The notes below the pieces were generated by a model. It searched no databases. It was not told the DNA's origin and saw only the letters and a list, made by a program, of their open reading frames with translations. Below are positions 3,590 through 30,668 of a stretch of DNA of 64,000 nt, one piece after another. This DNA is from Lineus longissimus. Lineage: Eukaryota; Nemertea; Pilidiophora; Heteronemertea; Lineidae. The translations under genes and the position numbers were made by a program. Numbering within the stretch: the first letter of the stretch is position 1; every line of letters starts with the position of its first letter. The stretch covers positions 4,593,001 through 4,657,000 of the forward strand of contig NC_088326.1 of the NCBI RefSeq assembly GCF_910592395.1, in the 5' to 3' direction.

Positions 3590-4010
3590 TCTTGGACGCT
3601 TCTGGTCCTCGGTACCATGTCGCTTGGTGTTTCAATCCTAGCACATGTTGTACCAGGGAATCGGATCGTCCTGACGTCACTGGAGATGACCGCCATAGGA
3701 CAATGTAGGACATTATCCAAAAGCAACATCTGTAACTCCAATTTCTGTAACTCTGCGTAAATTGTGGTAGTGATGGTTTTTACAAATTAGCACCATGGTA
3801 TACCAGTACTTGCGGATGAGTGGCGATGAACACACGTAACGGAAAGGTACACTGACCGTAACATTGACTGAATATAACCTTGTCCTCAACCTGGCACTGT
3901 GTGTTGTTTGGTTTTAATTCCTAGCACATACAGTACCAGGGTATAGGATGAGGTTCGATTCATCGTCAATGATTGAGATGAAGATCATGGACCGCAGCTA
4001 GAAGGAAGCA
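3590..4010 (+). repeat. Two diverged C-type satellite blocks at the left edge of the satellite field
   Basis: Blocks with CCTAGCACATGTTGTACCAG (about 3638) and CCTAGCACATACAGTACCAG (about 3921) match the core of the C family that dominates 27.9-30.2 kb, more than 24 kb away. The second block (3890-3941) has the best hairpin of the window: CCTGGCACTGTGTG pairs with CATACAGTACCAGG over 14 positions, with one mismatch and one G-T wobble. C-type units therefore flank the A array on its left as well as the far right side. Confidence 0.65.
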
Positions 4011-7000
4011 AGGATAGGCCTACTAAGTAGATTTATTCCAGTTGCTTTTCTTTCGTTGTTATTATGCAATTTCAATTGCAAGAATCACATTTCTTTTCCT
4101 GATATTTGTCTGTGCTTGTTGTCAATCATATACTAGCACATACCGATACTGGGGCAGGCGGTGGCATGGTCAACAACATCAGCAGTTCAGCTTATTAAGG
4201 TCTTGCTTTATACGAATCACCAGAAATACTTCTTTTCCTGATATTTGTCTGTGCTTGTTGTCAATCATATACTAGCACATACCGATACTGGGGCAGGCGG
4301 TGGCATGGTCTACAACATCAGCAGTTCACCTGCTTTAGGTCTTGCTTTAATACAAATCAACAGAAATACTTCTTTTCCTGATATTTGTCTGTGCTTGTTT
4401 TCAATCATACTAGCACATACCGATACTGGGGCAGGCGGTGGCATGGTCCACCACATCAGCAGTTCACCTGATTTAGGTCAGGTTTTGCTTTGATTCGAAT
4501 CAAAAGAAATACTTCTTTTCCTGATATTTGTCTGTGCTTGTTGTCAATCATATACTAGCAAATACCGATACTGGGGCAGGCGGTGGCATGGTCTACAACA
4601 TCAGCAGTTCACCTGCTTTAGGTCTTGCTTTGATACGAATCACCAGAAATACTTCTTTTCCTGATATTTGTCTGTGCTTGTTGTCAATCATATACTAGCA
4701 CATACCGACACTGGGGCAGGCGGTGGCATGGTCTACAACATCAGCTGTTCAGCTGATTTAGGTCAGGTTTTGCTTTGATACGAATCACCAGAAATACTTC
4801 TTTTCCTGATATTTGTCTGTGCTTGTTGTCAATCATATACTAGCACATACCGATACTGGGGCAGGCGGTGGCATGGTCTACAACATCAGCAGTTCACCTG
4901 ATTCAGGTCTTGCTTTGATTCGAAATACCAGAAATACATGTACTTCTTTTCCTGATATTTGTCTGTGCTTGTTGTCAATCATACACTAGCACATACCGAT
5001 ACTGGGGCAGGCGGTGGCATGGTCTACAACATCAGTAGTTCAGCTTATTTAGGTCAAGTCTTGCTTTGATACGAATCAACAGAGATACTTCTTTTCCTGA
5101 TATTTGTCTGTGCTTGTTTTCAATCATATACTAGCACATACCGATACTGGGGCAGGCGGTGGCATGGTCTACAACATCAGCAGTTCACCTGCTTTAGGTC
5201 TTGCTTTGATACGAATTACCAGAAATACTTCTTTTCCTGATATTTGTTTGTGCTTGTTGTCAATCATATACTAGCACATACCGATACTGGGGCAGGCGGT
5301 GGCATGGTCTACAACATCAGTAGTTCACCTGATTTAGGTCTTGCGTTGATTCGAAATATCAGAAATACATGTACTTCTTTTCCTGATATTTGTCTGTGCT
5401 TGTTGTCAATCATATACTAGCACATACTGATACTCGGGCAGGCGGTGGCATGGTCTACAACATCAGTAGTTCAGCTTATTTAGGTCAAGTCTTGCTTTGA
5501 TACGAATCACCAGAAATACTTCTTTTCCTGATATTTTTATGTGCTTGTTGTCAATCATATACTAGCACATACTGATACTGGGGTAGGCGGTGGCATGGTC
5601 TACAACATCAGCAGTTCATCTGATTTAGGTCAAGTCTTATTTTGATACGAATCACCAGAAATACTTCTTTTCCTGATATTTTTATGTGCTTGTTGTCAAT
5701 CATATACTAGCACATACCGATACTGGGGCAGGCGGTGGCATGGTCTATAACATCAGCAGTTCACCTGATTCAGGTATTGCTTTGATTCGAAATACCAGAA
5801 ATACATGTACTTCTTTTCCTGATATTTGTCTGTGCTTGTTGTCAATCATATACTAACACATACCGATACTGGGGCAGGCAGTGGCATGGTCTACAACATC
5901 AGCAGTTCACCTGATTCAGGTCTTGCTTTGATTCGAAATACCAGAAATACATGTACTTCTTTTCCTGATATTTGTCTGTGCTTGTTTTCAATCATATACT
6001 AGCACATACCGATACTGGGGCAGGCGGTGGCATGGTCTACAATATCAGCAGTTCACCTGCTTTAGGTCTTGCTTTGATATGAATCAACAGAGATACTTCT
6101 TTTCCTGATATTTGTCTGTGCTTGTTTTCAATCATATACTAGCACATACCGATACTGGGGCAGGCGGTGGCATGGTCTACAACATCAGCAGTTCACCTGC
6201 TTTAGGTCTTGCTTTGATACGAATCACCAGAAATACTTCTTTTCCTGATATTTGTTTGTGCTTGTTGTCAATCATATACTAGCACATACCGATACTTGGG
6301 CAGGCGGTGGCATGGTCTACAACATCAGTAGTTCAGCTGATTTAGGTCAAGTCTTGCTTTCACACGAATCACCAGAAATACTTCTTTTCCTGATATTTGT
6401 CTGTGCTTGTTGTCAATCATACACTAGCACATACCGATACTGGGGCAGGCGGTGGCATGGTCTACAACATCAGTAGTTCACCTGATTTAGGTCTTGCTTT
6501 GATTCAAAATATCAGAAATACATGCACATGTACTTCTTTTCCTGATATTTGTCTGTTCTTGTTATCAATCATATACTAGCACATACCGATACTGGGGCAG
6601 GCGGTGGCATTGTCTACAATATCAGCAGTTCACCTGCTTTAGGTCTTGCTTTGATACGAATCACCAGAAATACTTCTTTTCCTGATATTTGTATGTGCTT
6701 GTTGTCAATCATATACTAGCACATACCGATACTGGGGCAGGCGGTGGCATGGTCTACAACATCAGTAGTTCAGCTGATTTAGGTCAAGTCTTGCTTTCAC
6801 ACGAATCACCGAAATATTTCTTTTCCTGATATTTGTCTGTGCTTGTTGTCAATCATATACTAGCACATACCGATACTGGGGCAGGCAGTGGCATGTTCTA
6901 CAACATCAGCAGTTCATCTGATTTAGGTCAAGTCTTGCTTTGATACGAATCACCAGAAATACTTCTTTTCCTGATATTTGTCTGTGCTTGTTGTCAATCA

Positions 7001-8993
7001 TATACTAGCACATACCGATACTGGGGCAGGCGGTGGCATGGTCTACAATATCAGCAGTTCACCTGCTTTAGGTCTTGCTTTGATACGAATCACCAGAAAT
7101 ACTTCTTTTCCTGATATTTGTATGTGCTTGTTGTCAATCATTTACTAGCACATACCGATACTGGGGCAGGCGGTGGCATGGTCTACAACATCAGTAGTTG
7201 AGCTGATTTAGGTCAAGTCTTGCTTTCACACGAATCACCGAAATATTTCTTTTTCTGATATTTGTCTGTGCTTGTTGTCAATCATATACTAGCACATACC
7301 GATACTGGGGCAGGCAGTGGCATGTTCTACAACATCAGCAGTTCATCTGATTTAGGTCAAGTCTTGCTTTGATAAGAATCACCAGAAATACTTCTTTTCC
7401 AATATATTTGTCTGTGCTTGTTGTCAATCATATACTAGCACATACCAATACTGGGGCAGGCAGTGGCATGTTCTACAACATCAGCAGTTCATCTGATTTA
7501 GGTCAAGTCTTGCTTTGATACGAATCACCAGAAATACTTCTTTTCCTGATATTGGTATGTGCTTGTTGTCAATCATATACTAGCACATACCGATACTGGG
7601 GCAGGCGGTGGCATGGTCTACAACATCAGCAGCTCACCTGATTCAGGTCTTGCTTTGATTCGAAATACCAGAAATACTTCTTTTCCTGATATTTGTCTGT
7701 GCTTGTTGACTATCATATACTAGCACATACCATTACTGGGGCAGGCGGTGGCATGGTCTACAACATCAGCAGTTCACCTGATTCAGGTCTTGCTTTGATT
7801 CGAAATACCAGAAATACATGTACTTCTTTTCCTGATATTTGTCTGTGCTTGTTGTCAATCATATACTAGCACATACCGATACTGGGGAAGGCGGTGGCAT
7901 GGTCTACAAAATCAGCAGTTCAGCTGATTTAGGACAAGTCTTGCTTTGATTCAAAATACCAGAAATACATGTGCTTCTTTTCCTGATATTTGTCTGTGCT
8001 TGTTGTCAATCATATACTAGCACATACCGATACTGGGGCAGGCAGTGGCATGGTCTACAACATCAGCAGTTCACCTACTTTAGGTCTTGCTTTGATACAA
8101 ATCACCAGAAATACTTCTTTTCCTGATATTTGTATGTGCTTGTTGTCAATCATAAACTAGCACATACCGATACTGGGGCAGGCGGTGGCATGGTCTACAA
8201 CATCAGTAGTTCAGCTGATTGAGGTCAAGTCCGCTTTCACACGAATCACCGAAATATTTCTTTTCCTGATATTTGTCTGTGCTTGTTGTCAATCATATAC
8301 TAGCACATACCGATACTGGGGCAGGCAGCGGCATGTTCTACAACATCAGCTGTTCATCTGATTTAGGTCAAGTCTTACTTTGATACGAATCACCAGAAAT
8401 ACTTCTTTTCCTGATATTTGTATGTGCTTGTTTTCAATCATATACTAGCACATACCGATACTGGGGCAGGCGGTGGCATGGTCTACAAAATCAGCAGTTC
8501 AGCTGATTTAGGACAAGTCTTGCTTTGATTCGAAATACCAGAAATACATGTACTTCCTTTCCTGATATTTGTCTGTGCTTGTTGTCAATCATATACTAGC
8601 ACATACCGATACTGGGGCAGGCAGTGGCATGGTCTACAACATCAGCAGGTCACCTGCTTTAGGTCTTGCTTTGATACGAATCACCAGAAATACTTCTTTT
8701 CCTGATATTCGTATGTGCTTGTTGTCAATCATAAACTAGCACATACCGATACTGGGGCAGGCGGTGGCATGGTCTACAACATCAGCAGTTCACCTGCTTT
8801 AGGTCTTGCTTTGATACGTATCACCAGAAATACTTCTTTCCCTGATATTTGTCTGTGCTTGTTGTCAATCATATACTAGCACATACCGATACTGGGGCAG
8901 GCGGTGGCATGGTCTACAACATCAGTAGTTCAGCTTATTTAGGTCAAGTCTTTCTTTTACACGAATCACCAGAAATACTTCTATTCCTGATAT

Positions 8994-11900
8994 TTGTCTG
9001 TGCTTGTTGTCAATCATATACTAGCACATACCGATACTGGGGCAGGCGGTGGCATGGTCTACAACATCAGTAGTTCAGCTTATTTAGGTCAAGTCTTTCT
9101 TTTACACGAATCACCAGAAATACTTCTATTCCTGATATTTGTCTGTGCTTGTTGTCAATCATATACTAGCACATACCGATACTGGGGCAGGCGGTGGCAT
9201 GGTCTACAACATCAGCTGTTCAGCTGATTTAGGTCAAGTCTTGCTTTGATACGAATCACCAGAAATACTTCTTTTCCTGATATTTGTCTGTGCTTGTTGT
9301 CAATCATATACTAGCACATACCGATACTGGGGCAGGCGGTGGCATGGTCTACAACATCAGCAGTGCAGCTCATTTAGATCAAGTCTTGCTTTGATTCGAA
9401 ATACCAGAAATACATGTACTTCTTTTCCTGATATTTGTCTGTGCTTGTTGTCAATCATATACTAGCACATACCAATACTGGGGCAGTAGGTGGCATGGTC
9501 TACAAAATCAGCTGTTCAGCTGATTTAGGTCAGGTCTTGCTTCGATACGAATCACCAGAAATACTTCTTTTCCTGATATTTGTCTGTGCTTGTTGTCAAT
9601 CATATACTAGCACATACCGATACTGGGGCAGGCGGTGGCATGGTCTACAACATCAGCAGTGCAGCTCATTTAGATCAAGTCTTGCTTTGATTCGAAATAC
9701 CAGAAATACATGTACTTCTTTTCCTGATATTTGTCTGTGCTTGTTGTCAATCATATACTAGCACATACCGATACTGGGGCAGGCGGTGGCATGGTCTACA
9801 ACATCAGCAGTTCAGCTGATTTAGGACAAGTCTTGCTTTGATTCGAAATACCAGAAATACATGTACTTCTTTTCCTGATATTTGTGTGTGCTTGTTGTCA
9901 ATCATATACTAGCACATACCGCTACTGGGGCAGGCGGCGGCATGGTCTACAACATCAGTAGTTCAGCTTATTTAGGCAAATTTTACTTTCACACGAATCA
10001 CCGAAATACTTCTTTTCCTGATATTTGTCTGTGCTTGTTGTCAATCATATACTAGCACATACCGATACTGGGACAGGCGGTGACATGGTCTACAACATCA
10101 GCAGTTCAGCTGATTTAGGTCAGGTTTTGCTTTGATACGAATCAGCAGAAATACTTCTTTTCCTGATATTTGTTTGTGCTTCTTGTCAATCATATACTAG
10201 CACATAACGATACTGGGGCAGGCGTCGGCATGTTCTACAACATCAGCAGTTCGGCTTATTTAGGACAAGTCTTGCTTTGATTCGAAATACCAGAAATACA
10301 TGTACTTCTTTTCCTGATATTTGTCTGTGCTTGTTGTCAATCATATACTAGCACATGCCGATACTGGGGCAGGCGGTGGCATGGTCTACAACATCAGCAG
10401 TGCAGCTCATTTAGATCAAGTTTTGCTTTGATTCGAAATACCAGAAATACATGTACTTCTTTTCCTGATATTTGTCTGTGCTTGTTGTCAATCATATACA
10501 AGCACATACCGATACTGGGGCAGGCGGTGGCATGGTCTACAACATCAGCATTTGAACTGCTTTAGGTCTTGCTTTGATACGAATCACCAGAAATACTTCT
10601 TTTCCTGATATTTGTCTGTGCTTGTTGTCAATCATATACTAGCACATACAGATACTGGGGCAGGCGGTGGCATGGTCTACAACATCAGCATTTGAACTGC
10701 TTTAGGTCTTGCTTTGATACGAATCACCAGAAATACTTCTTTTCCTGATATTTGTCTGTGCTTGTTGTCAATCATATACTAGCACATACCGATACTGGGG
10801 CAGGCGGTGGCATGGTCTACAACATCAGTAGTTCAGCTTATTTAGGTCAAGTCTTTCTTTTACACGAATCACCAGAAATACTTCTATTCCTGATATTTGT
10901 CTGTGCTTGTTGTCAATCATATACTAGCACATACCGATACTGGGGCAGGCGGTGGCATGGTCTACAACATCAGCTGTTCAGCTGATTTAGGTCAAGTCTT
11001 GCTTTGATACGAATCACCAGAAATACTTCTTTTCCTGATATTTGTCTGTGCTTGTTGTCAATCATATACTAGCACATACCGATACTGGGGCAGGCGGTGG
11101 CATGGTCTACAACATCAGCAGTGCAGCTCATTTAGATCAAGTCTTGCTTTGATTCGAAATACCAGAAATACATGTACTTCTTTTCCTGATATTTGTCTGT
11201 GCTTGTTGTCAATCATATACTAGCACATACCAATACTGGGGCAGTAGGTGGCATGGTCTACAAAATCAGCTGTTCAGCTGATTTAGGTCAGGTCTTGCTT
11301 CGATACGAATCACCAGAAATACTTCTTTTCCTGATATTTGTCTGTGCTTGTTGTCAATCATATACTAGCACATACCGATACTGGGGCAGGCGGTGGCATG
11401 GTCTACAACATCAGCAGTGCAGCTCATTTAGATCAAGTCTTGCTTTGATTCGAAATACCAGAAATACATGTACTTCTTTTCCTGATATTTGTCTGTGCTT
11501 GTTGTCAATCATATACTAGCACATACCGATACTGGGGCAGGCGGTGGCATGGTCTACAACATCAGCAGTTCAGCTGATTTAGGACAAGTCTTGCTTTGAT
11601 TCGAAATACCAGAAATACATGTACTTCTTTTCCTGATATTTGTGTGTGCTTGTTGTCAATCATATACTAGCACATACCGCTACTGGGGCAGGCGGCGGCA
11701 TGGTCTACAACATCAGTAGTTCAGCTTATTTAGGCAAATTTTACTTTCACACGAATCACCGAAATACTTCTTTTCCTGATATTTGTCTGTGCTTGTTGTC
11801 AATCATATACTAGCACATACCGATACTGGGACAGGCGGTGACATGGTCTACAACATCAGCAGTTCAGCTGATTTAGGTCAGGTTTTGCTTTGATACGAAT

Positions 11901-12509
11901 CAGCAGAAATACTTCTTTTCCTGATATTTGTTTGTGCTTCTTGTCAATCATATACTAGCACATAACGATACTGGGGCAGGCGTCGGCATGTTCTACAACA
12001 TCAGCAGTTCGGCTTATTTAGGACAAGTCTTGCTTTGATTCGAAATACCAGAAATACATGTACTTCTTTTCCTGATATTTGTCTGTGCTTGTTGTCAATC
12101 ATATACTAGCACATGCCGATACTGGGGCAGGCGGTGGCATGGTCTACAACATCAGCAGTGCAGCTCATTTAGATCAAGTCTTGCTTTGATTCGAAATACC
12201 AGAAATACATGTACTTCTTTTCCTGATATTTGTCTGTGCTTGTTGTCAATCATATACAAGCACATACCGATACTGGGGCAGGCGGTGGCATGGTCTACAA
12301 CATCAGCATTTGAACTGCTTTAGGTCTTGCTTTGATACGAATCACCAGAAATACTTCTTTTCCTGATATTTGTCTGTGCTTGTTGTCAATCATATACTAG
12401 CACATACAGATACTGGGGCAGGCGGTGGCATGGTCTACAACATCAGCATTTGAACTGCTTTAGGTCTTGCTTTGATACGAATCACCAGAAATACTTCTTT
12501 TCCTGATAT
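8994..12509 (+). repeat. 1,758 bp higher-order duplication inside satellite A
   Basis: 8994-10751 and 10752-12509 are nearly identical, including rare variants such as CAGCATTTGAACTGC, GGCGTCGGCATGTTC and GCTACTGGGGCAGGCGGCGG. One visible difference is TTTTGC at about 10420 against TCTTGC at about 12178. About a dozen units were copied as a block. This is the pattern left by recent unequal exchange or amplification of several units together. Confidence 0.85.
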
Positions 12510-14157
12510 TTGTCTGTGCTTGTTGTCAATCATTTACTAGCACATACCAATACTGGGGCAGTCGGTGGCATGGTCTACAAAATCAGCTGTTCAGCTGATT
12601 TAGGTCAGGTCTTGCTTCGATACGAATCACCAGAAATACTTCTTTTCCTGATATTTGTCTGTGCTTGTTGTCAATCATATACTAGCACATACCGATATTG
12701 GGGCAGGCGGTGGCATGGTCTACAAAATCAGCAGTTCAGCTGATTTAGGACAAGTCTTGCTTTGATTCGAAATACCAGAAATACATGTACTTCTTTTCCT
12801 GATATTTGTCTGTGCTTGTTGTCAATGATATACTAGCACATACCGATACTGGGGCAGGCAGTGGCATGGTCTACAACATCAGCAGTTCACCTGCTTTAGG
12901 TCTTGCTTTGATACAAATCACCAGAAATACTTCTTTTCCTGATATTTGTCTGTGCTTGTTGTCAATCATATACTAGCACATACCGATACTGGGGCAGGCG
13001 GTGGCATGGTCTACAACATCAGTAGTTCAGCTTATTTAGGCAAATTTTACTTTCACACGAATCACCGAAATACTTCTTTTCCTGATATTTGTCTGTGCTT
13101 GTTGTCAATCATATACTAGCACATACCGATACTGGGGCAGGCGGTGGCATGGTCTGCAACATCAGCAGTTCAGCTGATTTAGGTCAGGTTTTGCTTTGAT
13201 ACGAATCAGCAGAAATACTTCTTTTCCTGATATTTGTTTGTGCTTCTTGTCAATCATATACTAGCACATAACGATACTGGGGCAGGCGTCGGCATGTTCT
13301 ACAACATCAGCAGTTCGGCTTATTTAGGACAAGTCTTGCTTTGATTCGAAATACCAGAAATACATGTACTTCTTTTCCTGATATTTGTCTGTGCTTGTTG
13401 TCAATCATATACAAGCACATACCGATACTGGGGCAGGCGGTGGCATGGTCTACAACATCAGTTGTTCAGCTTATTTAGGGAAGTCTTGCTTTGATACGAA
13501 TCAACTGAAACACTTCTTTTCCTGATATTTGTCTGTGCTTGTTGTCAATCATATACTAGCACATACCGATACTGGGGCAGGCGGTGGCATGGTCTACAAC
13601 ATCAGCAGTGCAGCTCATTTTGATCAAGTCTTGCTTTGATACGAATCACCAGAAATACTTCTTTTCCAGATATTTGTCTGTGCTTGTTGTCAATCATATA
13701 CTAGCACATACAGATACTGGGGCAGGCGGTGGCATGGTCTACAACATCAGCATTTGACCTGCTTTAGGTCTTGCTTTGATACGAATCACCAGAAATACTT
13801 CTTTTCCTGATATTTGTCTGTGCTTGTTGTCAATCATATACTAGCACATACCAATACTGGGGCAGTCGGTGGCATGGTCTACAAAATCAGCTGTTCAGCT
13901 GATTTAGGTCAGGTCTTGCTTCGATACGAATCACCAGAAATACTTCTTTTCCTGATATTTGTCTGTGCTTGTTGTCAATCATATACTAGCACATACCGAT
14001 TCAGGGGCAGGCGGTGGCATGGTCTACAACATCAGCTGTTCAGCTTATTTAGGTCAAGTCTTGCTTTGATTCGAAATAACAGAAATACATGTACTTCTTT
14101 TCCTGATATTTGTCTGTGCTTGTTGTCAATCATCTACTAGCACATACCGATACTGGG

Positions 14158-15110: not shown

Positions 15111-15419
15111 GATACTGGGGCAGGCGGTGGCATGGTCTACAAAATCAGCTGTTCAGCTGATTTACCGCCACCGCTGTTCAGCTGATTTAGGTCAGGTATT
15201 GCTTCGATACGAATCACCAGAAATACTTCTTTTCCTGATATTTGTCTGTGCTTGTTGTCAATCATATACCAGCACATACCGATACTGGGGCAGGCGGTGG
15301 CATGGTCTACAACATCAGCTGTTCAGCTTATTTAGGTCAAGTCTTGCTTTGATTCGAAATAACAGAAATACATGTACTTCTTTTCCTGATATTTGTCTGT
15401 GCTTGTTGTCAATCATATA

Positions 15420-18400: not shown

Positions 18401-19660
18401 TTCTTTTCCTGATATTTGTCTGTGCTTGTTGTCAATCATATACCAGCACATACCGATACTGGGGCAGGCGGTGGCATGTTCTACAACATCAGTAGTTCAG
18501 CTTATTTAGGTCAAGTCTTGCTTTGATACGAATCAACAGAGATACTTCTTTTCCTGATATATGTCTGTGCTTGTTTTCAATCATATACTAGCACATACCG
18601 ATACTGGGGCAGGCGGTGGCATGGTCTACAACATCAGCAGTTCACCTGCTTTAGGTCTTGCTTTGATACGAATCACCAGAAATACTTCTTTTCCTGATAT
18701 TTGTTTGTGCTTGTTGTCAATCATATACTAGCACATACCGATACTGGGGCAGGCGGTGGCATGGTCTAAAACATCAGCAGTTCACCTGATTTAGGTCTTG
18801 CTTTGATTCGAAATATCTGAAATACATGTACTTCTTTCCTGATATTTGTCTGTGCTTGTTGTCAATCATATACTAGAACATACCGATACTGGGGCAGGCG
18901 GTGGCATGGTCTACAACATCAGCAGTTCACCTGATTTAGGTCTTGCTTTGATTCAAAATATCAGAAATACATGCACATGTACTTCTTTTCCTGATATTTG
19001 TCTTTGCTTGTTATCAATCATATACTAGCACATACCGATACTGGGGCAGGCGGTGGCATTGTCTACAACATCAGCAGTTCACCTGATTTAGGTCAGGTTT
19101 TGCTTTGATACGAATCAACAGATACTTCTTTCCCTGATATTTGTCTGTGCTTGTTGTCAATCATATACTAGCACATACCGATACTGGGGCAGGCGGTGGC
19201 ATGGTCTACAATATCAGCAGTTCACCTGCATTTTGTCTTGCTTTGATGCGAATCACCAGAAATACTTCTTTTCCTGATATTTTTATGTGCTTGTTGTCAA
19301 TCATATACTAGCACATACCGATACTGGGGCAGGCGGTGGCATGGTCTACAACATCAGAAGTTCAGCTGATTTAGGTCAAGTCTTTCTTTCACACGAATCA
19401 CCGAAATATTTCTTTTCCTGATATTTGTCTGTGCTTGTTGTCAATCATATACTAGCACATACAGATACTGGGGCAGGCGGTGGCATGGTCTACAACATCA
19501 GCAGTTGACCAGCTTTAGGTCTTGCTTTGATACGAATCACCAGAAATACTTCTTTTCCTGATATTTGTCTGTGCTTGTTGTCAATCATATACTAACACAT
19601 ACCGATACTGGGGCAGGCGGTGGCATGGTCTACAACATCAGCAGTTCAGCTTATTTAGGT
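15420..19660 (+). repeat. Duplicated satellite A block at a 3,023 bp offset
   Basis: About 15430-16636 matches about 18453-19659 unit for unit. The shared rare variants are CTTCTTTCCTGATATTTG, ACTAGAACATACCG, CACCTGCATTTTGTC and CAGTTGACCAGC. The two copies diverge after the CAGTTCAGCTTATTTAGGTC step. Between them, 17401-17690 and 17691-17980 form a further two-unit (290 bp) duplication marked by the GGCGCCGGTGGTGACATG variant. Confidence 0.75.
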
Positions 19661-20849
19661 CAAGTCTTGCTTTGATTCGAAATAACAGAAATACATGTAC
19701 TTCTTTTCCTGATATTTGTCTTTGCTTGTTGTGAATCATATACTAACACATACCGATACTGGGGCAGGCGGTGGCATGGTCTACAACATCAGCAGTTCAC
19801 CTGCTTCAGGTCTTCCTCTGATACGAATCACTAGAAATGCTTCTTTTCCTGATATTTGTCTGTGCTTGTTTTCAATCATATACTAGCACATACCGATACT
19901 GGGGCAGGCGGTGGCATGGTCTACAACATCAGCAGTTCACCTGCTTTAGGTCTTACTTTGATACGAATCACAAGAAATACTTCTTTTCCTGATATTTGTC
20001 TGTGCTTGTTGTCAATCATATACTAGCACATACCGATACTGGCGCCGGTGTTGACATGGTCTACAACATTAGCAGTTCACTTGATCTTGGTCTTGCTTTG
20101 AAATTATCACCAGAAATACTCCTTTTCCTGATATTTGTCTGTGCTTGTTATCAATCATATACTAGCACATACCGATACTGGGGCAGGCGGTGGCATGGTC
20201 TACAACATCAGCAGTTCAGCTTATTTAGGTCAAGTCTTGCTTTGATACGAATCAACAGAGATACTTTTTTTCCTGATATTTGTCTGCGCTTGTTGTCAAT
20301 CATATACTAGCACATACCGGTACTGGGGCAAGCGGTGGCATGGTCTACAACATCAGCAGTTCACCTGCTTTAGGTCTTGCTTTGATACGAATCACAAGAA
20401 ATGCTTCTTTTCCTGATATTTGTCTGTGCTTGTTTTCAATCATATACTAGCACATATCGATACTGGGGCAGGCGGTGACATGGTCTACAACATCAGCAGT
20501 TTAGCTGATTTAGGTCAGGTTTTGCTTTGATACGAATCAACAGAGATACTTCTTTTCCTGATATTTGTTTGTGCTTGTTGTCAATCCTATACTAGCACAT
20601 ACCGATACTGGGGCAGGCGGTGGCATGGTCTACAACATCAGCAATTCACCTGATTTAGGTCAAGTCTTGTTTTGATACGAATTACCAGAAATACTTCTTT
20701 TCCTGATATTTGTCTGTGCTTGTTGTCAATCATATACTAGCACATACCGATACTGGGGTAAGCGATGGCATGGTCTACCACATCAGCAGTTCAGTTATTT
20801 TTCGGTCGTGTCTTGCTTTGATACGAATTACCAGAAACAAGTCTTTTCC

Positions 20850-22190
20850 TGATATTTGTCTGTAGATGCCAAAGGATACAATGGCTGACAAGGATTTGAA
20901 ATTTTTATCACACTCCCGCCCTGATATCGGCCAGTGCTTGTGGTAAATAACAACTAGCACATACCGATAGTGGTGCGGGCGGTGATCGTAGCACATACTG
21001 ATGTCTGGCAACATTTGAGAAAGGTTTCTATTAACTGCTCGCCAGTTCTTGTGGTATGAAAAATTAGTACATACCGATAATGGGATGGTGATTGCCTTAT
21101 CAACAGCAGACAGGCACACGGCCTGCAGATAAAAAGCAATAACTGCCCCCCTTTGCGATTCCTAGCATCCTATAGATTCCGTTTCCAATTGAAGCTTGAT
21201 AGCGCGAAACAAACACCAGTCCTGATCTAGGTCAGTGTTTGTGTGTTAAGAAATAAAACTTGAACTTATATACCGATACAGAGGGCAGCGAATTTAGCTC
21301 CTAAGAATTCTGCTCGTCACGGCTATTTGGGTGGCTATATTAACCACGTGTTTGTGAATCCTAGTATTCTCTGTGTTCTAGAAAGTTTGATTGTAGCACC
21401 ATCGGATACCAGGGCTGACGGGATATTTACGACATAGAGTTACTCTTTTCGCTAGTCTAGTGACCTGTCCCTCATACTCCCGCCCTGCAGGTCATAAAGT
21501 AGAACTGCAAAATAATGACTGATTTAACTATCACAAACCACTCTTTGTGAATCCTAACATCCTTTGTGTTCTAGAAGGTTTATAGCACCATAGGATACTA
21601 GGGCTGACTGGGAATCGACAACGATACTTTTTGAGACGAGCTTAAGCGAGAGTCGCATCCCCTTCCTAATAACAGTCAGAGCCTTTGCGTGATAATATTA
21701 CTCGCACATGCCGATACCGAGGGCGGGCAATGATTGTAGCTCGTATCGAATTATGCCCATATTACTAGTATTATTTGGGGTTTGACCATAGGATACCAGG
21801 TCAAGCGGGGAACCAACTTCCCGTAGACAAATCAAGCCCCGACTTGAGTAACATAGTCTGAGCACGGTTTGATAGCGAGCATCACCATCCTGTCCTGATA
21901 TTAGCCAGTGCATGTTGAAAACTAGCACATACCAACAGTGGCGCGGGCGGTGATTAAAGCAACAACAAAAGGACACATTGTCTGCAGTAAAATGATTCCT
22001 AGAATTCTTTACGTTCTAGAAGGTACGATTCTGGCACCATATGATACTAGGGCTAACGGGGAATTTAAAACAACAAATTCCGGAGCCATAGGTCATAAGT
22101 CCGGATATCGGTCGGCACCTGCGGTAACTTGCACCTACAGATACTGATGAGGCAGTCGTTGTAGGTCAACCAGTCTTTTTGATTCCCTTG
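20850..22190 (+). repeat. Transition zone of alternating A-type and B-type satellite blocks
   Basis: Diverged A blocks (CCTGATATCGG, then ACTAGCACATACCGATAGTG) lie near 20955, 21067, 21270, 21700, 21925 and 22120. Diverged B blocks (AATCCTAGTATTCT, then GTAGCACCATCGGATACCAG) lie near 21395, 21580, 21785, 22040 and 22225. From about 21580 they alternate strictly, with a period near 200-225 bp per A+B pair. Sequence between blocks is mostly unrelated. The A blocks here are closer to a perfect hairpin than those of the homogenised array. Confidence 0.75.
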
Positions 22191-25100
22191 TGAATCCTAG
22201 TATTCTTTGTGTTCTGGAGGGTTTGATTCTAGCACCATAGGATACCAGGGCTTACGTAGGATCATCCACGAAGCTATTTTGAGACAAGCCTGTGTTTGAA
22301 GCTCAGTTACTTCGGCTATTAGCAAAAACTACTCCTTTGTGAATCCTTGTATTCTTTGTGTTCTAGACGGTTTGATTCTAGCACCACAGGATACCAGGGC
22401 TTACGTAGGATCATCCACGAAGCTATTTTGAGACAAGCCTGTGTTTTAAGCTCAGTTACTTTGGCTATTAGCAAAAACTACTCCTTTGTGAATCCTAGTA
22501 TTCTTTGTGTTCTGGAGGGTTCGATTCTAGCACCATAGGATACCAGGGCTTACGTAGGATCATCCACGAAGCTATTTTGAGACAAGCCTGTGTTTGAAGC
22601 TCAGTTACTTCGGCTATTAGCAAAAACTACTCCTTTGTGAATCCTTGTATTCTTTGTGTTCTAGACGGTTTGATTCTAGCACCACAGGATACCAGGGCTT
22701 ACGTAGGATCATCCACGAAGCTATTTTGAGACAAGCCTGTGTTTTAAGCTCAGTTACTTTGGCTATTAGCAAAAACTACTCCTTTGTGAATCCTAGTATT
22801 CTTTGTGTTCTGGAGGGTTCGATTCTAGCACCATAGGATACCAGGGCTTACGTAGGATCATCCACGAAGCTATTTTGAGACAAGCCTGTGTTTTAAGCTG
22901 GGTTACTTCGGCTATTAGCAAAAACTACTCCTTTGTGAATCCTAGTATTCTTTGTGTTCTAGACGGTGTGATTCTAGCACCATAGGATACCAGGGGTTAC
23001 GTAGGATCATCCACGAAGCTATTATGAGACAAGCCTGTGTTTGAAGCTCAGTTACTTCGGCTTTTAGCAAAAACTACTTCTTTGTAAATCCTAGTATTCT
23101 TTGTGTTCTGGAGGGTTCGATTCTAGCACCATAGGATACTAGGACTAACGTAGGATCATCCACGAAGCTATTTTGAGACAAGCCTGTGTTTTAAGCGGGG
23201 TTACTTCGGCTATTAGCAAAAACTAATCCTTTGTGAATCCTAGTATTCTTTGAGTTCTGGAGGGTTCAATTCTAGCACCATAGGATACCAGGGCTTACGT
23301 AGGATCATCCACGAAGCTATTTTGAGACAAGCCCGTGTTTTAAGCTCAGTTACTTCGGCTATTAGCAAAAACTACTCCTTTGTGAATCCTTGTATTCTTT
23401 GTGTTCTGGAGGGTTCGATTCTAGCACCATAGGATACCAGGGCTTACGTAGGATCACCCACGAAGCTATTTTGAGACAATCCTGTGTTTTAAGCTCAGTT
23501 ACTTTGGCTATTAGCAAAAACTACCTCTTTGTGAATCCTAGTATTCTTTGTGTTCTGGAGGGTTCGATTCTAGCACCACAGGATACCAGGGCTTACGTAG
23601 GATCATCCACGAAGCGATTTTGAGACAAGCCTGTGTTTTAAGCTGGGTTACTTCGGCTATTAGCAAAAACTACTCCTTTGTGAATCCTAGTATTCTTTGT
23701 GTTCTGTAGGGTTCGATTCTAGCACCATAGGATACTAGGGCTTACGTAGGATCATCCACGAAGCTATTTAGAGGCAAGCCTGTGTTTTAAGCTCAGTTAC
23801 TTTGGCTATTAGCGAAAACTACTCCTTTGTGAATCCTAGTAATCTGTGTGTTCTGGAGGGTTTGATTCTAGCACCATAGGATACTAGGGCTTACGTAGGA
23901 TTATCCACGAAGCTATTTTGAGACAAGCCTGTGTTTTAAGCTGGGTTACTTCGGTTTTTAGCAAAAACTACTCCTTTGTGAATCCTAGTATTCTTTGTGT
24001 TCTGGAGGGTTCGATTCTAGCACCATAGGATACCAGGCCTTACGTAGGATCATCCACGAAGCTATTTAGAGACAAGCCTGTGTTTTAAGCTCAGTTACTT
24101 TGGCTATTAGCAAAAACTACTCCTTTGTGAATCCTAGTATTCTTTGTGTTCTGGAGGGTTCGATTCTAGCACCATAGGATACCAGGGCTTACGTAGGATC
24201 ATCCACGAAGCTATTTTGAGACAAGCCTGTGTTTTAAGCTGGGTTACTTCGGCTATTAGCAAAAACTACTCCTTTGTGAATCCTAGTATTCTTTGTGTTC
24301 TAGACGGTGTGATTCTAGCACCATAGGATACCAGGGGTTACGTAGGATCATCCACGAAGCTATTTTGAGACAAGCCTGTGTTTGAAGCTCAGTTACTTCG
24401 GCTGTTAGCAAAAACTACTTCTTTGTAAATCCTAGTATTCTTTGTGTTCTGGAGGGTTCGATTCTAGCACCATAGGATACTAGGACTAACGTAGGATAAT
24501 CCACGAAGCTATTTTGAGACAAGCCTGTGTTTTAAGCGGGGTTACTTCGGCTATTAGCAAAAACTAATCCTTTGTGAATCCTAGTATTCTTTGAGTTCTG
24601 GAGGGTTCAATTCTAGCACCATAGGATACCAGGGCTTACGTAGGATCATCCACGAAGCTATTTTGAGACAAGCCCGTGTTTTAAGCTCAGTTACTTCGGC
24701 TATTAGCAAAAACTACTCCTTTGTGAATCCTTGTATTCTTTGTGTTCTGGAGGGTTCGATTCTAGCACCATAGGATACCAGGGCTTACGTAGGATCACCC
24801 ACGAAGCTATTTTGAGACAATCCTGTGTTTTAAGCTCAGTTACTTTGGCTATTAGCAAAAACTACCTCTTTGTGAATCCTAGTATTCTTTGTGTTCTGGA
24901 GGGTTCGATTCTAGCACCACAGGATACCAGGGCTTATGTAGGATCATCCACGAAGCGATTTTGAGACAAGCCTGTGTTTTAAGCTGGGTTACTTCGGCTA
25001 TTAGCAAAAACTACTCCTTTGTGAATCCTAGTATTCTTTGTGTTCTGTAGGGTTCGATTCTAGCACCATAGGATACTAGGGCTTACGTAGGATCATCCAC

Positions 25101-25985
25101 GAAGCTATTTAGAGGCAAGCCTGTGTTTTAAGCTCAGTTACTTTGGCTATTAGCGAAAACTACTCCTTTGTGAATCCTAGTAATCTGTGTGTTCTGGAGG
25201 GTTTGATTCTAGCACCATAGGATACTAGGGCTTACGTAGGATCATCCACGAAGCTATTTTGAGACAAGCCTGTGTTTTAAGCTGGGTTACTTCGGTTTTT
25301 AGCAAAAACTACTCCTTTGTGAATCCTAGTATTCTTTGTGTTCTGGAGGGTTCGATTCTAGCACCATAGGATACCAGGGCTTACGTAGGATCATCCACGA
25401 AGCTATTTAGAGACAAGCCTGTGTTTTAAGCTCAGTTACTTTGGCTATTAGCAAAAACTACTCCTTTGTGAATCCTTGTATTCTTTGTGTTCTAGACGGT
25501 GTGATTCTAGCACCATAGGATATTAGGGCTTACGTAGGATCATCCACGAAGCTATTTTGAGACAATCCTGTGTTTTAAGCTTGGTTACTTCGGCTATTAG
25601 CAAAAACTACTCCTTTGTGAATCCTTGTATTCTTTGTGTTCTGGAGGGTTCGATTCTAGCACCATAGGATACCAGGGCTTACGTAGGATCATCCACGATG
25701 CTATTTTGAGACAAGCCTGTGTTTTAAGCTGGGTTACTTCGGCTATTAGCAAAAACTACTCCTTTGTGAATCCTTGTATTCTTTGTGTTCTAGACGGTGT
25801 GATTCTAGCACCATAGGATACCAGGGGTTACGTAGGATCATCCACGAAGCTATTTTGAGACAAGCCTGTGTTTGAAGCTCAGTTACTTCGGCTTTTAGCA
25901 AAAATTACTTCTTTGTGAATCCTAGTATTCTTTGTGTTCTGGAGGGTTCGATTCTAGCACCATAGGATACTAGGGCTTACGTATT
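22190..25985 (+). repeat. Satellite family B, about 25 tandem units of 149 bp
   Basis: The unit contains TTTGTGAATCCTAGTATTCT, TTGTGTTCTGGAGGGTTCGA, TTCTAGCACCATAGGATACC, AGGGCTTACGTAGGATCATC, GAAGCTATTTTGAGACAAGC and TTAGCAAAAACTACTCC. Period is very regular: 298 bp for the pair beginning near 22190, repeated near 22488. The 60-77 residue frames seen in it come from this regularity and do not look like protein. The core aligns with the A and C families around CTAGCAC and GATACYRGGG. Confidence 0.95.
22790..25470 (+). repeat. 1,341 bp (9-unit) higher-order duplication inside satellite B
   Basis: Positions from about 22790 recur 1,341 bp later (nine 149 bp units). They carry the same rare variants in the same order: the TTCAATTCTAGCACC unit, the GGATACTAGGACTAACG unit, the GGATCACCCACGAAGC unit and the CTATTTAGAGGCAAGCC unit. 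Few differences separate the copies (for example GGATCATCC against GGATAATCC, GGCTTACG against GGCTTATG), so the duplication is recent. Confidence 0.85.
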
Positions 25986-25989
25986 ATAT

Positions 25990-26340
25990 GATTGTGCGAA
26001 TCATTCTCCCGTCCTGATATCGGTGAGTGATAGTGTGTAATAACAACTAGCACATACCGACACTGGGGCGGGCGGTGATTAAAAGCATAGACCAATGGGC
26101 ACTTAGATAGCGGAAAATATTACCAAAATAGATTTGTATCTGAAACACGACTATTTGTTATAGTTTCACAGTGGTTTTAAAACTTTGATCACAACATGAA
26201 TACTGAAAATAGTCTTCGTCAGCTAGAGTAAAATTCCATTGATATGTTGGAAAAAATCGGCACATCCCGATGTTGACATTCAAAAAAGTCAGTTACTGCG
26301 AGTAATTCGATCTTCCGTCGTAGAAACATCTACATGCTGT
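25990..26340 (+). repeat. A-type satellite block on the far side of the B array, then non-repetitive DNA
   Basis: CCTGATATCGGTGAGTGATA followed by ACTAGCACATACCGACACTG and GGGCGGGCGGTGATTAAA (about 26012-26085) is the same A variant as in the transition zone left of the B array. The B array is thus bracketed by A-type blocks. From about 26090 to 26340 I see nothing recognisable. Confidence 0.65.
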
Positions 26341-27690
26341 TCATCCCAGGTACACCTGGCTGCTTGGTTGTAAAATCCTAGCACATGCTGTACCAAGGTC
26401 TGAACGGATGGAAGTGCCGCCACGACGCCAACTGCATGTACGTGTAGTCGGAAGTGCGTTTTCGACCAGGCCTGGTTCTGAATGCAGTTGCCATTGCCTA
26501 CGCGCAGTGAGACCCTACGTCAAGAACCCACGGCTGCAATAACCGTTGCTGTTCACCTCCGGTACACTATGCTGCTTGGCTATCAATTCCTAGCACATTC
26601 TGTACCAAGGTCTGAACGGGCGGGCGTGCAACCGATCGATCGCGAGGCAATTCAGTGTAGCCTTCATGGTCACTTCTTGTTACAAGTTGTTACGAGGGCG
26701 AGTCCCCGTATGTTGAAACAATTTAAAAAATGGGTTTGACGACAGTTTCAAAGTAGAGTTTTGACGTAATCTAGGAGTCTTAGCCAGAAGACAGTGTTAT
26801 AGATTCAGTTACAAATCACTGTCAACCATATAAATACACGCAGCTAATAGCGGCGTCCATAACCGTTGATGTTCATTCCCGGTACTCCCTGCTGCTTGGT
26901 TTGCAAATCCTAGCACATTTTGTACCAGGGTTTGAACGGGGCGGAAATGCTACCGATGCTGTCACCTAGCATTTTTCTTTGCTGAGCATCAGTTATATCC
27001 CAACCTTATCATCATCTGAGCAACATGCCCGCCCCTGTACCAAGGTCTGAACGGATGGAAGTGCCGCCACGACGCCAACTGCATGTACGTGTAGTCAGAA
27101 GTGCGTTTTCGACCAGGCCTGGTTCTGAATGCAGTTGCCATTGCCTACGCGCAGTGAGACCCTACGTCAAGAACCCACGGCTGCAATAACCGTTGCTGTT
27201 CACCTCCGGTACACTATGCTGCTTGGCTATCAATTCCTAGCACATTCTGTACCAGGGTCTGAACGGGCGGGCGTGCAACTGATCGATCGCGAGGCAATTC
27301 AGTGTATCCTTCATGGTCACTTCTTGTTACAAGTTGTTACGAGGGCGAGTCCCCGTATGTTGAAACAATTTAAAAAATGGGTTTGACGACAGTTTCAAAG
27401 TAGAGTTTTGACGTAATCTAGGAGTCTTAGCCAGAAGACAGTGTTATAGATTCAGTTACAAATCACGGTCAACCGTATAAATACACGCAGCTAATAGCGG
27501 CGTCCATAACCGTTGATGTTCATTCCCGGTACTCCCTGCTGCTTGGTTTGCAAATCCTAGCACATTTTGTACCAGGGTTTGAACGGGGCGGAAATGCTAC
27601 CGATGCTGTCACCTAGCATTTTTCTTTGCTGAGCATCAGTTATATCCCAACCTTATCATCATCTGAGCAACATGCCCGCTTTTGTCATGA
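26340..27690 (+). repeat. Diverged C-type blocks in a tandem 647 bp duplication
   Basis: Positions about 26391-27030 recur at about 27038-27677, nearly identical over 640 bp. Each copy contains C-type cores (ATTCCTAGCACATTCTGTAC and AATCCTAGCACATTTTGTAC) plus longer unrelated DNA with TTGTTACGAGGGCGAGTCCC. The 85-residue frames at 26482 and 27129 lie across these repeats and look incidental. From 27690 to about 27900 is AT-rich DNA with an AATAAA near 27820 and no gene. Confidence 0.8.
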
Positions 27691-27899
27691 CTGTCGTTGC
27701 AGCTTTTTTGATTGGCGCAACAGAACTGCCCTGAGGATGAGGTTGGTCACTGGTAATATATAAGATGATTAAATCCGGCACAATCGCAAGTTGTAGGCCA
27801 TTGTAGATGAAGTTTACAATAAAGAAACTCAAGGAAATTTAATCATACATCATGATAAGTAAGAAACAAGTAACAATTAATTTATCATACATCTCTTCA

Positions 27900-30225
27900 C
27901 GACCGTTTTTTTCCCCTTCCCGGTACACCTTGTTCCTTGGCACATGCTCTACCAGGGTCTGAACCGGCGGGAGTAACACCAAGACGCCACCTGTGGCTGC
28001 AACCGAGGCTGCAATAACCGTAACTGTTCCCCGATACAATTTGCTGCTTGGTTGTTGTTCTAGCACATGCTGTACCAGGGTCTGAACGGGTGAAACTACC
28101 ATCCTACCAGGGTCTGAGCGGGCGGAGGTGCCATCAAGACGCCACCTGTGGCTGCAATAACCGTTACTGTTCAACACCGATACACTTGGCTGCTTGGTTG
28201 TCGATTCCTAGCACATGCTTTACCAGGGTCTGAACGGGTGGAACTACCATCCTACCAGGGTCTGAGCGGGTGGAGGTGCCATCAAGACGCCACCTGTGGC
28301 TGCAATAGCCGTTACTGTTCAACACCGGTACACTTTGCTGCTTGGTAGTCGATTCCTAGCACATGCTTTACCAGGGTCTGAACGGGTGGAACTACCATCC
28401 CACCAGGATCTGAGCTGGCGGAGGTGCCATGAAGACGCCACCTGTGGCTGCAATAACCGCTACTGTTCAACACCGGTACACTTTGCTGCTTGGTAGTCGA
28501 TTTCTAGCACATGCTTTACCAGGGTCTGAACGGGTGGAACTACCATCCTACCAGAGTCTGAACGGGCGGAGGTGCCATTAAGTCCCCACCTGTGGCTGCA
28601 ATAACCGTAACTGTTCCTCCCCGATACACTTTGCTGCTTGGTTGTCGATTCCTAGCACATGCTGTACCAGGGTCTGAACGGGTGAAACTACCATCCTACC
28701 AGGGTCTGAGCGGGCGGAGGTGCCATCAAGACGCCACCTGTGGCTGCAATAACCGTTACTGTTCAACCTCGGTACACTTTGCTGCTTGGTTGTCAATTCC
28801 TAGCACATGCTGTACCAGGGTGTGAACGGGCGGAAGTACCATCCTACCAGAGTCTGAACAGGTGGAGGTGCCAGCAAGTCCCCACCTATGGCTGCAATAA
28901 CCGAAACTGTTTCTCCCCGATACACTTTGCTGCTAGGTTGTCAATCCTAGCACATGCTGTACCAGGGTCTGAACGGGCGGAACTACCATCCTACCAGAGT
29001 CTGAACGGGCGGGGGTGCCATTAAGTCCCCACCTGTGGCTGCAATAACGGTAACTGTTCCTCCCCGATACACTTTGCTGCTTGGTTGTCAATTCCTAGCA
29101 CATGCTGTACCAGGGTCTGAACGGGTGAAACTACCATCCTACCAGGGTCTGAGCGGGCGGAGGTGCCATCAAGACGCCACCTGTGGCTGCAATAACCTTT
29201 ACTGTTCAACACAGGTACACTTTGCTGCTTGGTTGTTGTTCCCTAGCACATGCTGTACCAGGGTCTGAACGGGTGGAACTACATTCAAGCCAGGGTCTGA
29301 GCGGGCGGAGGTGCCATTAAGTCCCCACCTGTGGCTGTAATAACCGTTACTGTTCAACCTCGGTACACTTTGCTGCTTGGTAGTCGATTCCTAGCATATG
29401 CTTTACCAGGGTCTGAACGGGTGGAACTACCATCCTACCAGGGTCTGAGCGGGCGGAGGTGCCATCAAGACGCAACCTGTGGCTACAATAACCGTTACTG
29501 TTCAACCTCGGTACACTTTGCTGCTTGGTTGTCAATTCCTAGCACATGCTGTACCAGGGTCTGAACGGGTGGAACTACCATCCTACCAGGGTCTGAGCGG
29601 GTGGAGGTGCCATCAAGACGCAACCTGTGGCTGCAATAACCGTAACTTACCTCCCCGATACACTTTGCTGCTTGGTTGTCGATTCGTAGCACATGCTGTA
29701 CCAGGGTCTGAACGGGTGACACTACCATCCTACCAGGGTCTGAACGGCTGGAGGTGCCATCACGACGCCACCTGTGGCTGTAATAACCGTTACTGTTCCT
29801 CCCCGATACACTTTGCTGCTTGGTTGTCGATTCCTAGCACATGCTGTACCAGGGTCTGAACGGGTGGAACTACCATCCTACCAGGGTCTGAACGGGTGGA
29901 GGTGCCATCACGACGCCACCTGTGGCTGTAATAACCGTTACTGTTCCTCCCCGATACACTTTGCTGCTTGGTTGTCGATTCCTAGCACATGCTGTACCAG
30001 GGTCTGAACGGGTGGAACTACCATCCTACCAGGGTCTGAACGGGTGGAGGTGCCATCACGACGCCACCTGTGGCTGTAATAACCGTTACTGTTCCTCCCC
30101 GATACACTTTGCTGCTTGGTTGTCGATTCCTAGCACATGCTGTACCAGGGTTTGAACGGGCGAAACTACCATCCTACCTGGGTCTGAGCGGATCGAAGTT
30201 TCATCCAGACGCCAACTATGCCTTC
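27900..30225 (+). repeat. Satellite family C, about 15 tandem units of 148 bp
   Basis: Unit: CCCCGATACACTTTGCTGCT, TGGTTGTCGATTCCTAGCAC, ATGCTGTACCAGGGTCTGAA, CGGGTGGAACTACCATCC, then a second shorter TACCAGGGTCTGAACGGG, then GGTGCCATCAAGACGCCACC and TGTGGCTGCAATAACCGTTA. The core is therefore internally duplicated in each unit at a 32 bp spacing. The 29774-30150 units repeat exactly at 148 bp. Frames of 60-126 residues occur on both strands, as expected when 148 bp units happen to lack stops. No start context or domain supports coding. Confidence 0.95.
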
Positions 30226-30668
30226 ACCAGTGGCGACAGTTTAGGGTAAGACATGAATTTGGAACTAATATGGCATGATTCTTTTGTCATGACCACACTC
30301 TAATAATGACAGCCAGTTTTGCTTAACACACATTTACCTCATACATCAACATTCGTTATGCCATAACCGAGCCATCAGCCCTACATACTATTTGTTATCA
30401 GTATTAAGAAGTGGAATGTGTTCTGCAGAAGGGCCATATCTTCTTATTTCCTGCTGGCACACACAATGCAAAACAAGACAGCACGGTCCGAAAAAACGTT
30501 ATACGAGTCATGTCAACAAAAGATTTATTCACAGAAATGTTAAACCAGTTCTTTGAGTTTGTGATAAACCTTGGAAGTCTTTTTCAATTGCCAGCAAATC
30601 CCTGGAGGTGCAACTCAGGACTCTTATTTTTAGGAGTGCAGTGTATAGAGCATGGTCAGTTTATAGAG
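30226..30668. other. Space between satellite C and the membrane-protein gene; probable 3' UTR
   Basis: This stretch carries the presumed 3' UTR of the minus-strand gene that ends at 30669. The plus-strand 93-codon frame at 30411-30692 overlaps its last exon and has no recognisable feature. Confidence 0.5.
30524..30529 (-). terminator. Polyadenylation signal AATAAA
   Basis: TTTATT on the plus strand reads AATAAA on the minus strand, about 140 bp past the predicted stop codon (30669-30671). The position is suitable for 3' end formation of the membrane-protein gene. Confidence 0.45.

Follow-up and report, generated by a model that had tools for sequence, protein, structure and literature searches.

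Our analysis suggests that a locus in the window, i.e. the whole stretch of 64,000 nucleotides that was analysed, is probably a giant polycistronic cluster of miR-29-like microRNAs, made up of three tandem arrays and diverged single copies. This reading is drawn from the sequence. A seed-like constraint, the position of a CNNC motif and the matches of one hairpin type to the miR-29 family point to primary microRNA hairpins, an option absent from those listed in the original prediction. That prediction was correct on two points, the importance of the folded form and the likelihood of a structured RNA.

Layout of the hairpin locus

The block CTAGCAC, around which a hairpin had been predicted, occurs 147 times as an exact match in the window, against a mean of 5.70 and a maximum of 12 in shuffled sequences, and the hairpin around it is real. 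All but two of the copies (145) lie within 3638-30136, every one on the plus strand and none on the minus strand; the outlying two are at 46988 (+) and 58344 (-). Contrary to the original claim, it is not strictly invariant, given that units 4555 and 5853, among others, are changed within the block. Covariance models give a total of about 165 hairpins (114 of type A, 29 of type B, 20 of type C, and the single hairpins 3638 and 3921), spanning 26.6 kb of a single strand (+); if they are precursors, their number falls within the tens to thousands that characterise a giant tandem microRNA array. The features are listed below, where a sequence that served to build a covariance model matches that model by construction.

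3594..3672, +, single hairpin 3638; E=1.1e-5 with a model built from type C only and not from 3638; z=-3.3; predicted 3p strand from 3639
3740..3821, +, weak, probably diverged hairpin 3787, with TAGCACCA; 8.9 bits and E=0.27 in 2.5 kb with model R1, filters off; z=-1.9; outside the 165
3875..3957, +, single hairpin 3921, the outlier of the original prediction and the strongest fold; E=4.7e-8 (C-only model) and E=0.0021 (B-only model), neither built from 3921; z=-7.8
4082..14157, +, first part of array A, units of ~145 bp with one type A hairpin each, seed AGCACAU; TRF (4091-14157) and model R2
15194..20863, +, second part of array A; TRF and model R2; 109 array hairpins of type A in the two parts together
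20904..22065, +, mixed zone of diverged single hairpins; R1 and R2, both built partly from these copies
20904-20994, 21015-21104, 21649-21742 and 21878-21962, +, type A hairpins in the mixed zone; R1 and R2
21347-21427, 21540-21616 and 21985-22065, +, type B hairpins in the mixed zone; R1 and R2
22183..25988, +, array B, units of 149 bp, 26 hairpins, seed AGCACCA as in miR-29; TRF, R1, Rfam mir-83 and mir-29 matches
25997..26087, +, single type A hairpin adjoining the end of array B; R2 E=3.6e-17, the hairpin being in R2's own set; z=-4.6
26327..27595, +, five single type C hairpins (26327, 26540, 26860, 27187 and 27507); R3
27900..27974, +, degraded type C hairpin; R3 E=1.4e-4; outside the 165
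28010..30167, +, array C, units of 148 bp, 15 hairpins, seed AGCACAU; TRF and R3

The three arrays lie where they had been placed, as TRF finds the same locations. They had been described as otherwise different satellites, and three arrays there are, but they are better read as local amplifications of one mixed hairpin cluster, with the diverged copies between them as its probable remnants. Large recent copies are present inside the arrays, at lags of 1758, 1341 and 647 bases with ungapped identities of 94.8, 98.2 and 98.4%; a fourth lag tested, 3023, gave 70.1%. At the lag of 647 bases, hairpins 27187 and 27507 repeat 26540 and 26860 (98.4% identity over 560 bases). The hairpin arms written out in the original prediction are present, although the type A example given there combines different copies: CCTGATATCGG belongs to two single hairpins, 20954 and 26047, in which the 3' arms are CCGATAGTGG and CCGACACTGG.

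Folding, pairing and constraint

When pieces of 93 nt were folded, 28-34 pairs were obtained for the single copies 3638, 3921, 20954, 26047 and 26910, with energies from -34 to -43 kcal/mol and z from -3.3 to -7.8. The predicted stems exist, but in the best single copies, with their 28-34 pairs, they are longer than described. The precursor form, in which two ~22-nt arms sit on a lower stem roughly one helical turn long, is seen in the best single copies, in the three array B units folded and in C28800 (28-34 pairs), yet only 13 of the 32 folded candidates have a z of -2 or lower. Five array units of type A (z from -0.1 to -1.1) are hardly more stable than shuffles, and some decayed copies and some type C copies have z above 0.

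The original prediction had also claimed compensating arm changes between families and proposed RNAalifold as a check. Per-family alignments do fold, but the joint alignment of 22 hairpins yielded no predicted pair, we think because small bulges in the 5' arm shift the columns; an arm-swap test was therefore used. It comprised 18 hairpins, leaving out the degenerate 21065, 21162, 21270, 21701, 22128, 26262 and 27938, the duplicates 27237 and 27557, and further array units. The true pairing ranked first among 720 family permutations for the whole stem and for the upper stem, and second for the outer stem, which backs the compensating changes. Covariance models link type A to the other types weakly. 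Model R1, built from type B only, found no type A or C hairpin in the whole window with an E of 1 or lower; once the filters were switched off, its top matches had E=0.014 for type C and E=0.55 for the type A array, and the best match tying type A to the other types had E=0.19 (R3). Since these scores are weak for A against B, it is the anatomy of the hairpin, together with a common TAGCAC start and agreement in position and strand, that supports the homology of the two types.

When the arrays are pooled, variation among 79 seven-base windows is lowest at positions 2-8 of the predicted 3p strand, as would be the case for a microRNA seed. The rank of this window per array is 5 of 133 in A, tied first with six others of 141 in B, and tied 8-31 of 141 in C, while the whole 22-nt 3' arm ranks 43 of 118, 58 of 126 and 7 of 126 windows, respectively, and is not unusual in A and B. 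These profiles comprise 109 of 117 matches for A, 25 of 29 for B and 14 of 26 for C, the rest being partial or outside the arrays; the matches are to whole-unit HMMs made from alignments whose units were picked by their 3' arm, which is a bias. A CNNC motif starting 15-18 nt beyond the predicted Drosha cut was present in 13 of 16 distinct hairpins, against 16% expected, the range having been widened from 16-18 after the data were seen. Within the 16-18 nt given in the cited part of PMC9905709, the motif, which is common and not obligatory, was found in 9 of 16 (13% expected), likewise counted from the predicted cut. The 16 hairpins include 21065 and leave out 21162, 21270, 21701, 22128, 26262, 27938, two duplicates and further array units.

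An alternative that we consider rather unlikely, and yet the most serious one, is that the locus is a satellite derived from a microRNA gene and now mostly inert, i.e. DNA amplified by unequal exchange with few or no copies processed. The variation within the arrays gives it some ground: hairpins and linkers vary alike in array B (4.1 and 3.5%) and array C (6.0 and 5.6%), and of the 46 derived alleles in array A, 15 preserve pairing, under the 43% expected without selection, so that substitutions there do not spare it. Many copies fold no better than shuffles, as noted above, and homogenisation, of which the large recent copies are a sign, could by itself keep the units alike. An inert satellite would not, however, readily account for the variation minimum at the seed in the pooled arrays, for linkers in array A that vary 3.5 times as much as the hairpin core (7.9 against 2.3%), or for the CNNC at 15-18 nt in 139 of the 150 TAGCAC units, even though array copies are not independent.

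It is improbable that the hairpins are an inverted-repeat DNA element (a foldback, a MITE or a recombination site), with arms kept alike by conversion and no function as RNA. Arm conversion or a fresh inverted duplication would also make self-pairing better than swapped pairing, and the strong single copies fold about equally on both strands. The latter also counts against the microRNA reading, as does the relatively better folding of the minus strand in three of four array C units. Against such an element, plus-strand RNA of the three array B units gives much lower z values (from -2.7 to -3.4) than the complement (-0.1 to -0.8), and G.U pairs exceed A.C mismatches, 37 to 21 in 16 hairpins, although a T-rich composition could add to this excess. 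All 145 blocks share one orientation, and a palindrome predicts neither the seed window nor the CNNC. The earlier suggestion of a DNA hairpin used in amplification finds no support.

A source locus for hairpin siRNAs or piRNAs is hardly to be expected either. The one-strand layout over 26 kb and the repeated units would suit either class of small RNA, but the hairpins are short (28-34 pairs for the best copies) and carry one fixed block, and the variation minimum matches a seed. Retrozymes are tandem monomers with a structured core, a description that the monomers of 145-149 bp share, but a self-cleaving or circular satellite RNA of this kind, also among the options of the original prediction, is extremely improbable, given that no ribozyme family reached the Rfam threshold and that the only ribozyme in the E-value searches was RAGATH-13, on the minus strand (16.4 bits, E=2.6), the search of array A at 5000-20500 being confined to the gathering threshold.

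Resemblance to the miR-29 family

A search with 4227 Rfam families at E up to 5 over 20500-30300 returned mir-83, mir-29 and mir-995 only. The mir-83 family matched 26 copies, the best at 43.8 bits (E=1.2e-5), just short of its cut-off of 44; mir-29 reached 29.7 bits (E=0.0054; gathering score 46.7) and mir-995 22.5 bits (E=0.94). As no family attained its gathering score, mir-29 and mir-83 included, the hairpins are called miR-29-like. According to the cited parts of PMC2486268 and PMC4109884, the three families form one seed family, and their matches are not independent because they share CTAGCACC. The Rfam E-value searches gave no miR-29-family match in the type A units of 3000-5000 or in the C region; for the part of array A at 5000-20500, the search used the gathering threshold alone.

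Compared with the miR-29 precursors (RF00074 mir-29, RF00812 mir-83 and RF01996 mir-995), type B has the same seed, AGCACCA, and carries at the start of its 3' arm UCUAGCACCAU, common to the mir-83 and mir-29 consensus; its 5' arm also aligns to mir-83. Further along the mature strand, however, type B departs from the Rfam consensus, and types A and C differ in having the seed AGCACAU. The miR-29 seed is found in 29 of the 150 TAGCAC units, namely type B and the weak copy 3787 only, and AGCACAU in the remaining 121. Few copies of miR-29 are known in vertebrates, and the copy number here is far above that. Exact-pattern scans of viral contigs and of bacterial and archaeal genome contigs gave 0 and 0, as expected for an animal locus. 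An origin from a tRNA or SINE was rejected, as no tRNA was found; the type B loop contains GGTTCGATTC, which we take to resemble a B box.

Comparison with giant microRNA arrays

In its organisation, the cluster is best read as similar to the miR-427 arrays of Xenopus tropicalis and the miR-430 arrays of zebrafish. Several variants in one array system are also described for miR-430 in the cited part of PMC10417697. The microRNA family is a different one, and mir-427, mir-430 and mir-302 had no match in the Rfam searches (array A, 5000-20500, at the gathering threshold only). Furthermore, the present cluster consists of three separate arrays on one strand with diverged single copies between them, whereas the 33 copies of mir-427 reported for X. 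laevis in the cited part of PMC10569791 lie on both strands. What is cited here of PMC10569791 and PMC10417697 ties the very large tandem microRNA arrays of fish and frogs to maternal mRNA clearance. No report of a tandem miR-29 array appeared among the literature titles searched, which is weak evidence of absence.

If the locus is a microRNA cluster, a long plus-strand transcript would run across it, and each hairpin would be cut by Drosha/DGCR8 ~22 nt after the T of TAGCAC and then by Dicer. The 3' arm would be loaded, giving UAGCACCAUAGGAUACCAGGGC from B, UAGCACAUACCGAUACUGGGGC from A and UAGCACAUGCUGUACCAGGGUC from C; B would act on sites of the miR-29 type (UGGUGCU), and the sites of A and C would be shifted to AUGUGCU. 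Having so many copies may serve dosage or fast accumulation, as is thought for miR-427, and the arrays may have grown from a small mixed cluster by unequal exchange. We put forward more tentatively, as a serious possibility, that this is a lineage-specific mega-cluster derived from miR-29, outside the miR-430/427/302 family and an independent solution to very high dose, split into the seed classes AGCACCA and AGCACAU, each amplified as its own satellite, with satellite-style concerted evolution driving the evolution of the seed. A miR-29-like array on this scale would mean that giant arrays have arisen repeatedly and from different microRNAs, and, if the source animal is an invertebrate, that they extend beyond vertebrates. 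The three adjacent arrays would then allow seed and hairpin constraint to be measured against concerted evolution, and would serve as a warning that some satellites regarded as inert are microRNA genes.

Extent and history of the hairpin series

The locus is probably a polycistronic pri-miRNA holding a miR-29-like cluster. The structure of its better copies, the seed constraint, the CNNC element and the resemblance to miR-29 relatives are observed at the locus itself. A one-strand series of hairpins spans 3594-30167. The window as a whole has 147 matches to CTAGCAC against 5.7 expected; 145 of these lie within 3638-30136, every one on the plus strand. Single-family models recovered type A hairpins at 114 places, 109 of them within the array and 5 standing alone; for type B the count is 29 (26 in its array, 3 single) and for type C it is 20 (15 in its array, 5 single). 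These counts include some sequences from which the models were built. The C-only model also recovered single hairpins 3921 (E=4.7e-8) and 3638 (E=1.1e-5), neither of them in its building set, which brings the total to 165. The rest of the window gave no convincing further copy, the best match outside having E=4.7.

Tandem arrays delimited with Tandem Repeats Finder
4091-14157 and 15194-20863, array A, 145-bp unit
22184-25983, array B, 149-bp unit
28007-30191, array C, 148-bp unit

Between arrays A and B, single hairpins alternate between A-like and B-like across 1.2 kb; one more single A copy lies directly 3' of array B, and array C is preceded by single C copies. These interspersed copies suggest that the three units were amplified out of one small mixed cluster. 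Of four block-repeat lags tested, those of 1758, 1341 and 647 bases gave ungapped identities of 94.8%, 98.2% and 98.4%, indicating that exchange was recent in places; the lag of 3023 bases gave 70.1%. Array A is split by a non-autonomous DNA transposon of 953 bp (14158-15110), which has 26-bp inverted ends CAAGGAGGATACCGCGGTGACGTCAC, sits inside a type A hairpin and is flanked by the 9-bp direct repeat GATACTGGG (14149-14157 and 15111-15119).

Folding and joint change of the arms

The original prediction described three satellites sharing one imperfect hairpin. That hairpin is present, with a stem longer than proposed, since the best single copies (3638, 3921, 20954, 26047 and 26910, folded as 93-nt pieces) fold into stems of 28-34 pairs with energies of -34 to -43 kcal/mol and z against shuffles of -3.3 to -7.8. 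Three array B units gave z of -2.7 to -3.4, five type A array units -0.1 to -1.1, and three of the four array C units folded -0.5 to +1.0; several diverged copies between arrays A and B at best equal their shuffles, and z <= -2 was reached by just 13 of 32 folded candidates. The poor folding of many copies favours the chief rival, a satellite of microRNA origin that is now mostly inert, as do arrays B and C, where the hairpin is as variable as the linker; we consider this reading rather unlikely. The complementary strand of array B units folds far more weakly (z -0.1 to -0.8), an asymmetry expected of plus-strand RNA. In the strong single copies both strands fold similarly, and in array C units 28060, 28208 and 29834 the minus strand is relatively better folded. 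Under strand-symmetric scoring of 16 hairpins, G.U pairs numbered 37 vs 21 mirror-image A.C mismatches, an excess that may be partly due to T-rich composition.

Compensating changes between the arms had also been proposed, and they were borne out between families when all 5' arms of 18 hairpins from six families were combined with all 3' arms, under a null of independent drift. Among the 720 family-level permutations, the true pairing takes first place when scored on the whole stem or on the upper stem alone, and second place on the outer stem. The 5' arms of all six families pair best with their own 3' arm, and the 3' arms of four with their own 5' arm; for B and for the weak, probably diverged hairpin 3787, the 3' arm has its better partner in the 5' arm of 3638. 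For individual hairpins, pairing with the own partner beats the mean pairing with arms of other families in 17 of 18 cases viewed from the 5' arm and in 14 of 18 viewed from the 3' arm. Hairpin b21393 is an exception from either side; A4272, b22031 and C28208 are exceptions from the 3' arm only. The arms of the hairpin families did not drift independently. Within families the pairing excess is slight, being reached by 968 (outer stem) and 1702 (upper stem) of 20000 permutations. Two results count against covariation: the joint alignment yields no predicted fold, and in array A the pair is kept by 15 of 46 derived alleles vs 43% expected. Taken together, pairing has been kept between families, with recent array mutations showing no visible filtering for it.

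Seed, CNNC and miR-29 resemblance

When the three arrays are pooled, the seed (positions 2-8 of the predicted mature strand, from the T of TAGCAC) is the least variable seven bases among 79 windows. The next minimum distinct from it shares bases with the 5' segment to which the seed pairs in array A. Within single arrays, the rank of the seed is 5 of 133 in A, a tie for first of 141 in B and a tie for 8-31 of 141 in C. The complete 22-nt 3' arm is outstanding for its conservation in C, where it ranks 7 of 126; in A and B it does not stand out, with ranks of 43 of 118 and 58 of 126. The seed reads AGCACAU in 121 of 150 units and AGCACCA in 29. According to a passage of PMC9905709, many pri-miRNAs carry a CNNC element some 16-18 nt away from the 3' cut made by Drosha. 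Measured from the predicted cut, 9 of the 16 distinct hairpins have CNNC at 16-18 (13% expected) and 13 have it at 15-18 (16% expected), a range widened after data inspection; the position profile peaks at about the pri-miRNA distance. Related hairpins are not independent, and a reduced set gave 8 of 11. Seed constraint and CNNC are two signatures that would not be expected of a mere palindrome.

No Rfam family reached its gathering score. In 20500-30300 three families alone came up at E<=5, all confined to array B. The strongest was mir-83, with 26 matches and a best score of 43.8 bits (cut-off 44, E=1.2e-5); mir-29 matched 22 times, at up to 29.7 bits (E=0.0054), and mir-995 twice (22.5 bits, E=0.94). 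No miR-29-family match came from the C region or from the type A units between 3000 and 5000. In the alignments, UCUAGCACCAU is found again in the consensus of mir-83 and in that of mir-29, and mir-83 can be aligned along the 5' arm too. An excerpt of PMC2486268 places cel-miR-49/83, dme-miR-285/995/998 and hsa-miR-29a-c in one group, most of which a section of PMC4109884 assigns to the miR-29 seed family; the three matches are therefore not independent of one another. The C model matched array B at a best E=6.7e-4 and array A weakly (best E=0.19). Judged by sequence, the locus would be miR-29-like and fall short of miR-29 itself: its best matches lie 0.2 bits under the curated score for mir-83 and much further under that for mir-29, and the miR-29 seed is found in type B only.

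The closest known arrangement is found in two arrays whose precursors are counted in a passage of PMC10569791: miR-427 of X. tropicalis, with 171, and miR-430 of zebrafish, with >2000. If expressed, the locus would function like these arrays, the likeness shown being one of arrangement and not of family membership. It would be transcribed as a polycistronic pri-miRNA; we infer all the steps from transcription through loading to targeting.

Other features of the window

31388-33006, plus strand, DDE_Tnp_4 transposase frame (E=5e-24), shortly 3' of array C
35220-35765, minus strand, Myb/SANT-like frame (E=4.5e-15), opposite in strand to the transposase frame
50467-51468, minus strand, uninterrupted 333-aa rhodopsin-type GPCR frame (7tm_1, E=1e-19)
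55378-56556, minus strand, 392-aa open frame of ankyrin repeats (Ank_2, E=1.3e-82)
63306-63759, tandem repeat, 76-bp unit, 5.9 copies

The first two frames together presumably represent a PIF/Harbinger-type transposon. The rhodopsin-type receptor frame, together with the hairpins themselves, suggests that the DNA is probably of animal origin. The type B hairpin loop (22183-25988) often carries GGTTCGATTC, which we take to resemble a tRNA B box; tRNA prediction across the window found none. The 76-bp unit is no multiple of three, and its minus strand has segments resembling GDGTQCVMAGWGCSSGGKM in all three frames, presumably akin to the trypsin-type VAGWG motif.
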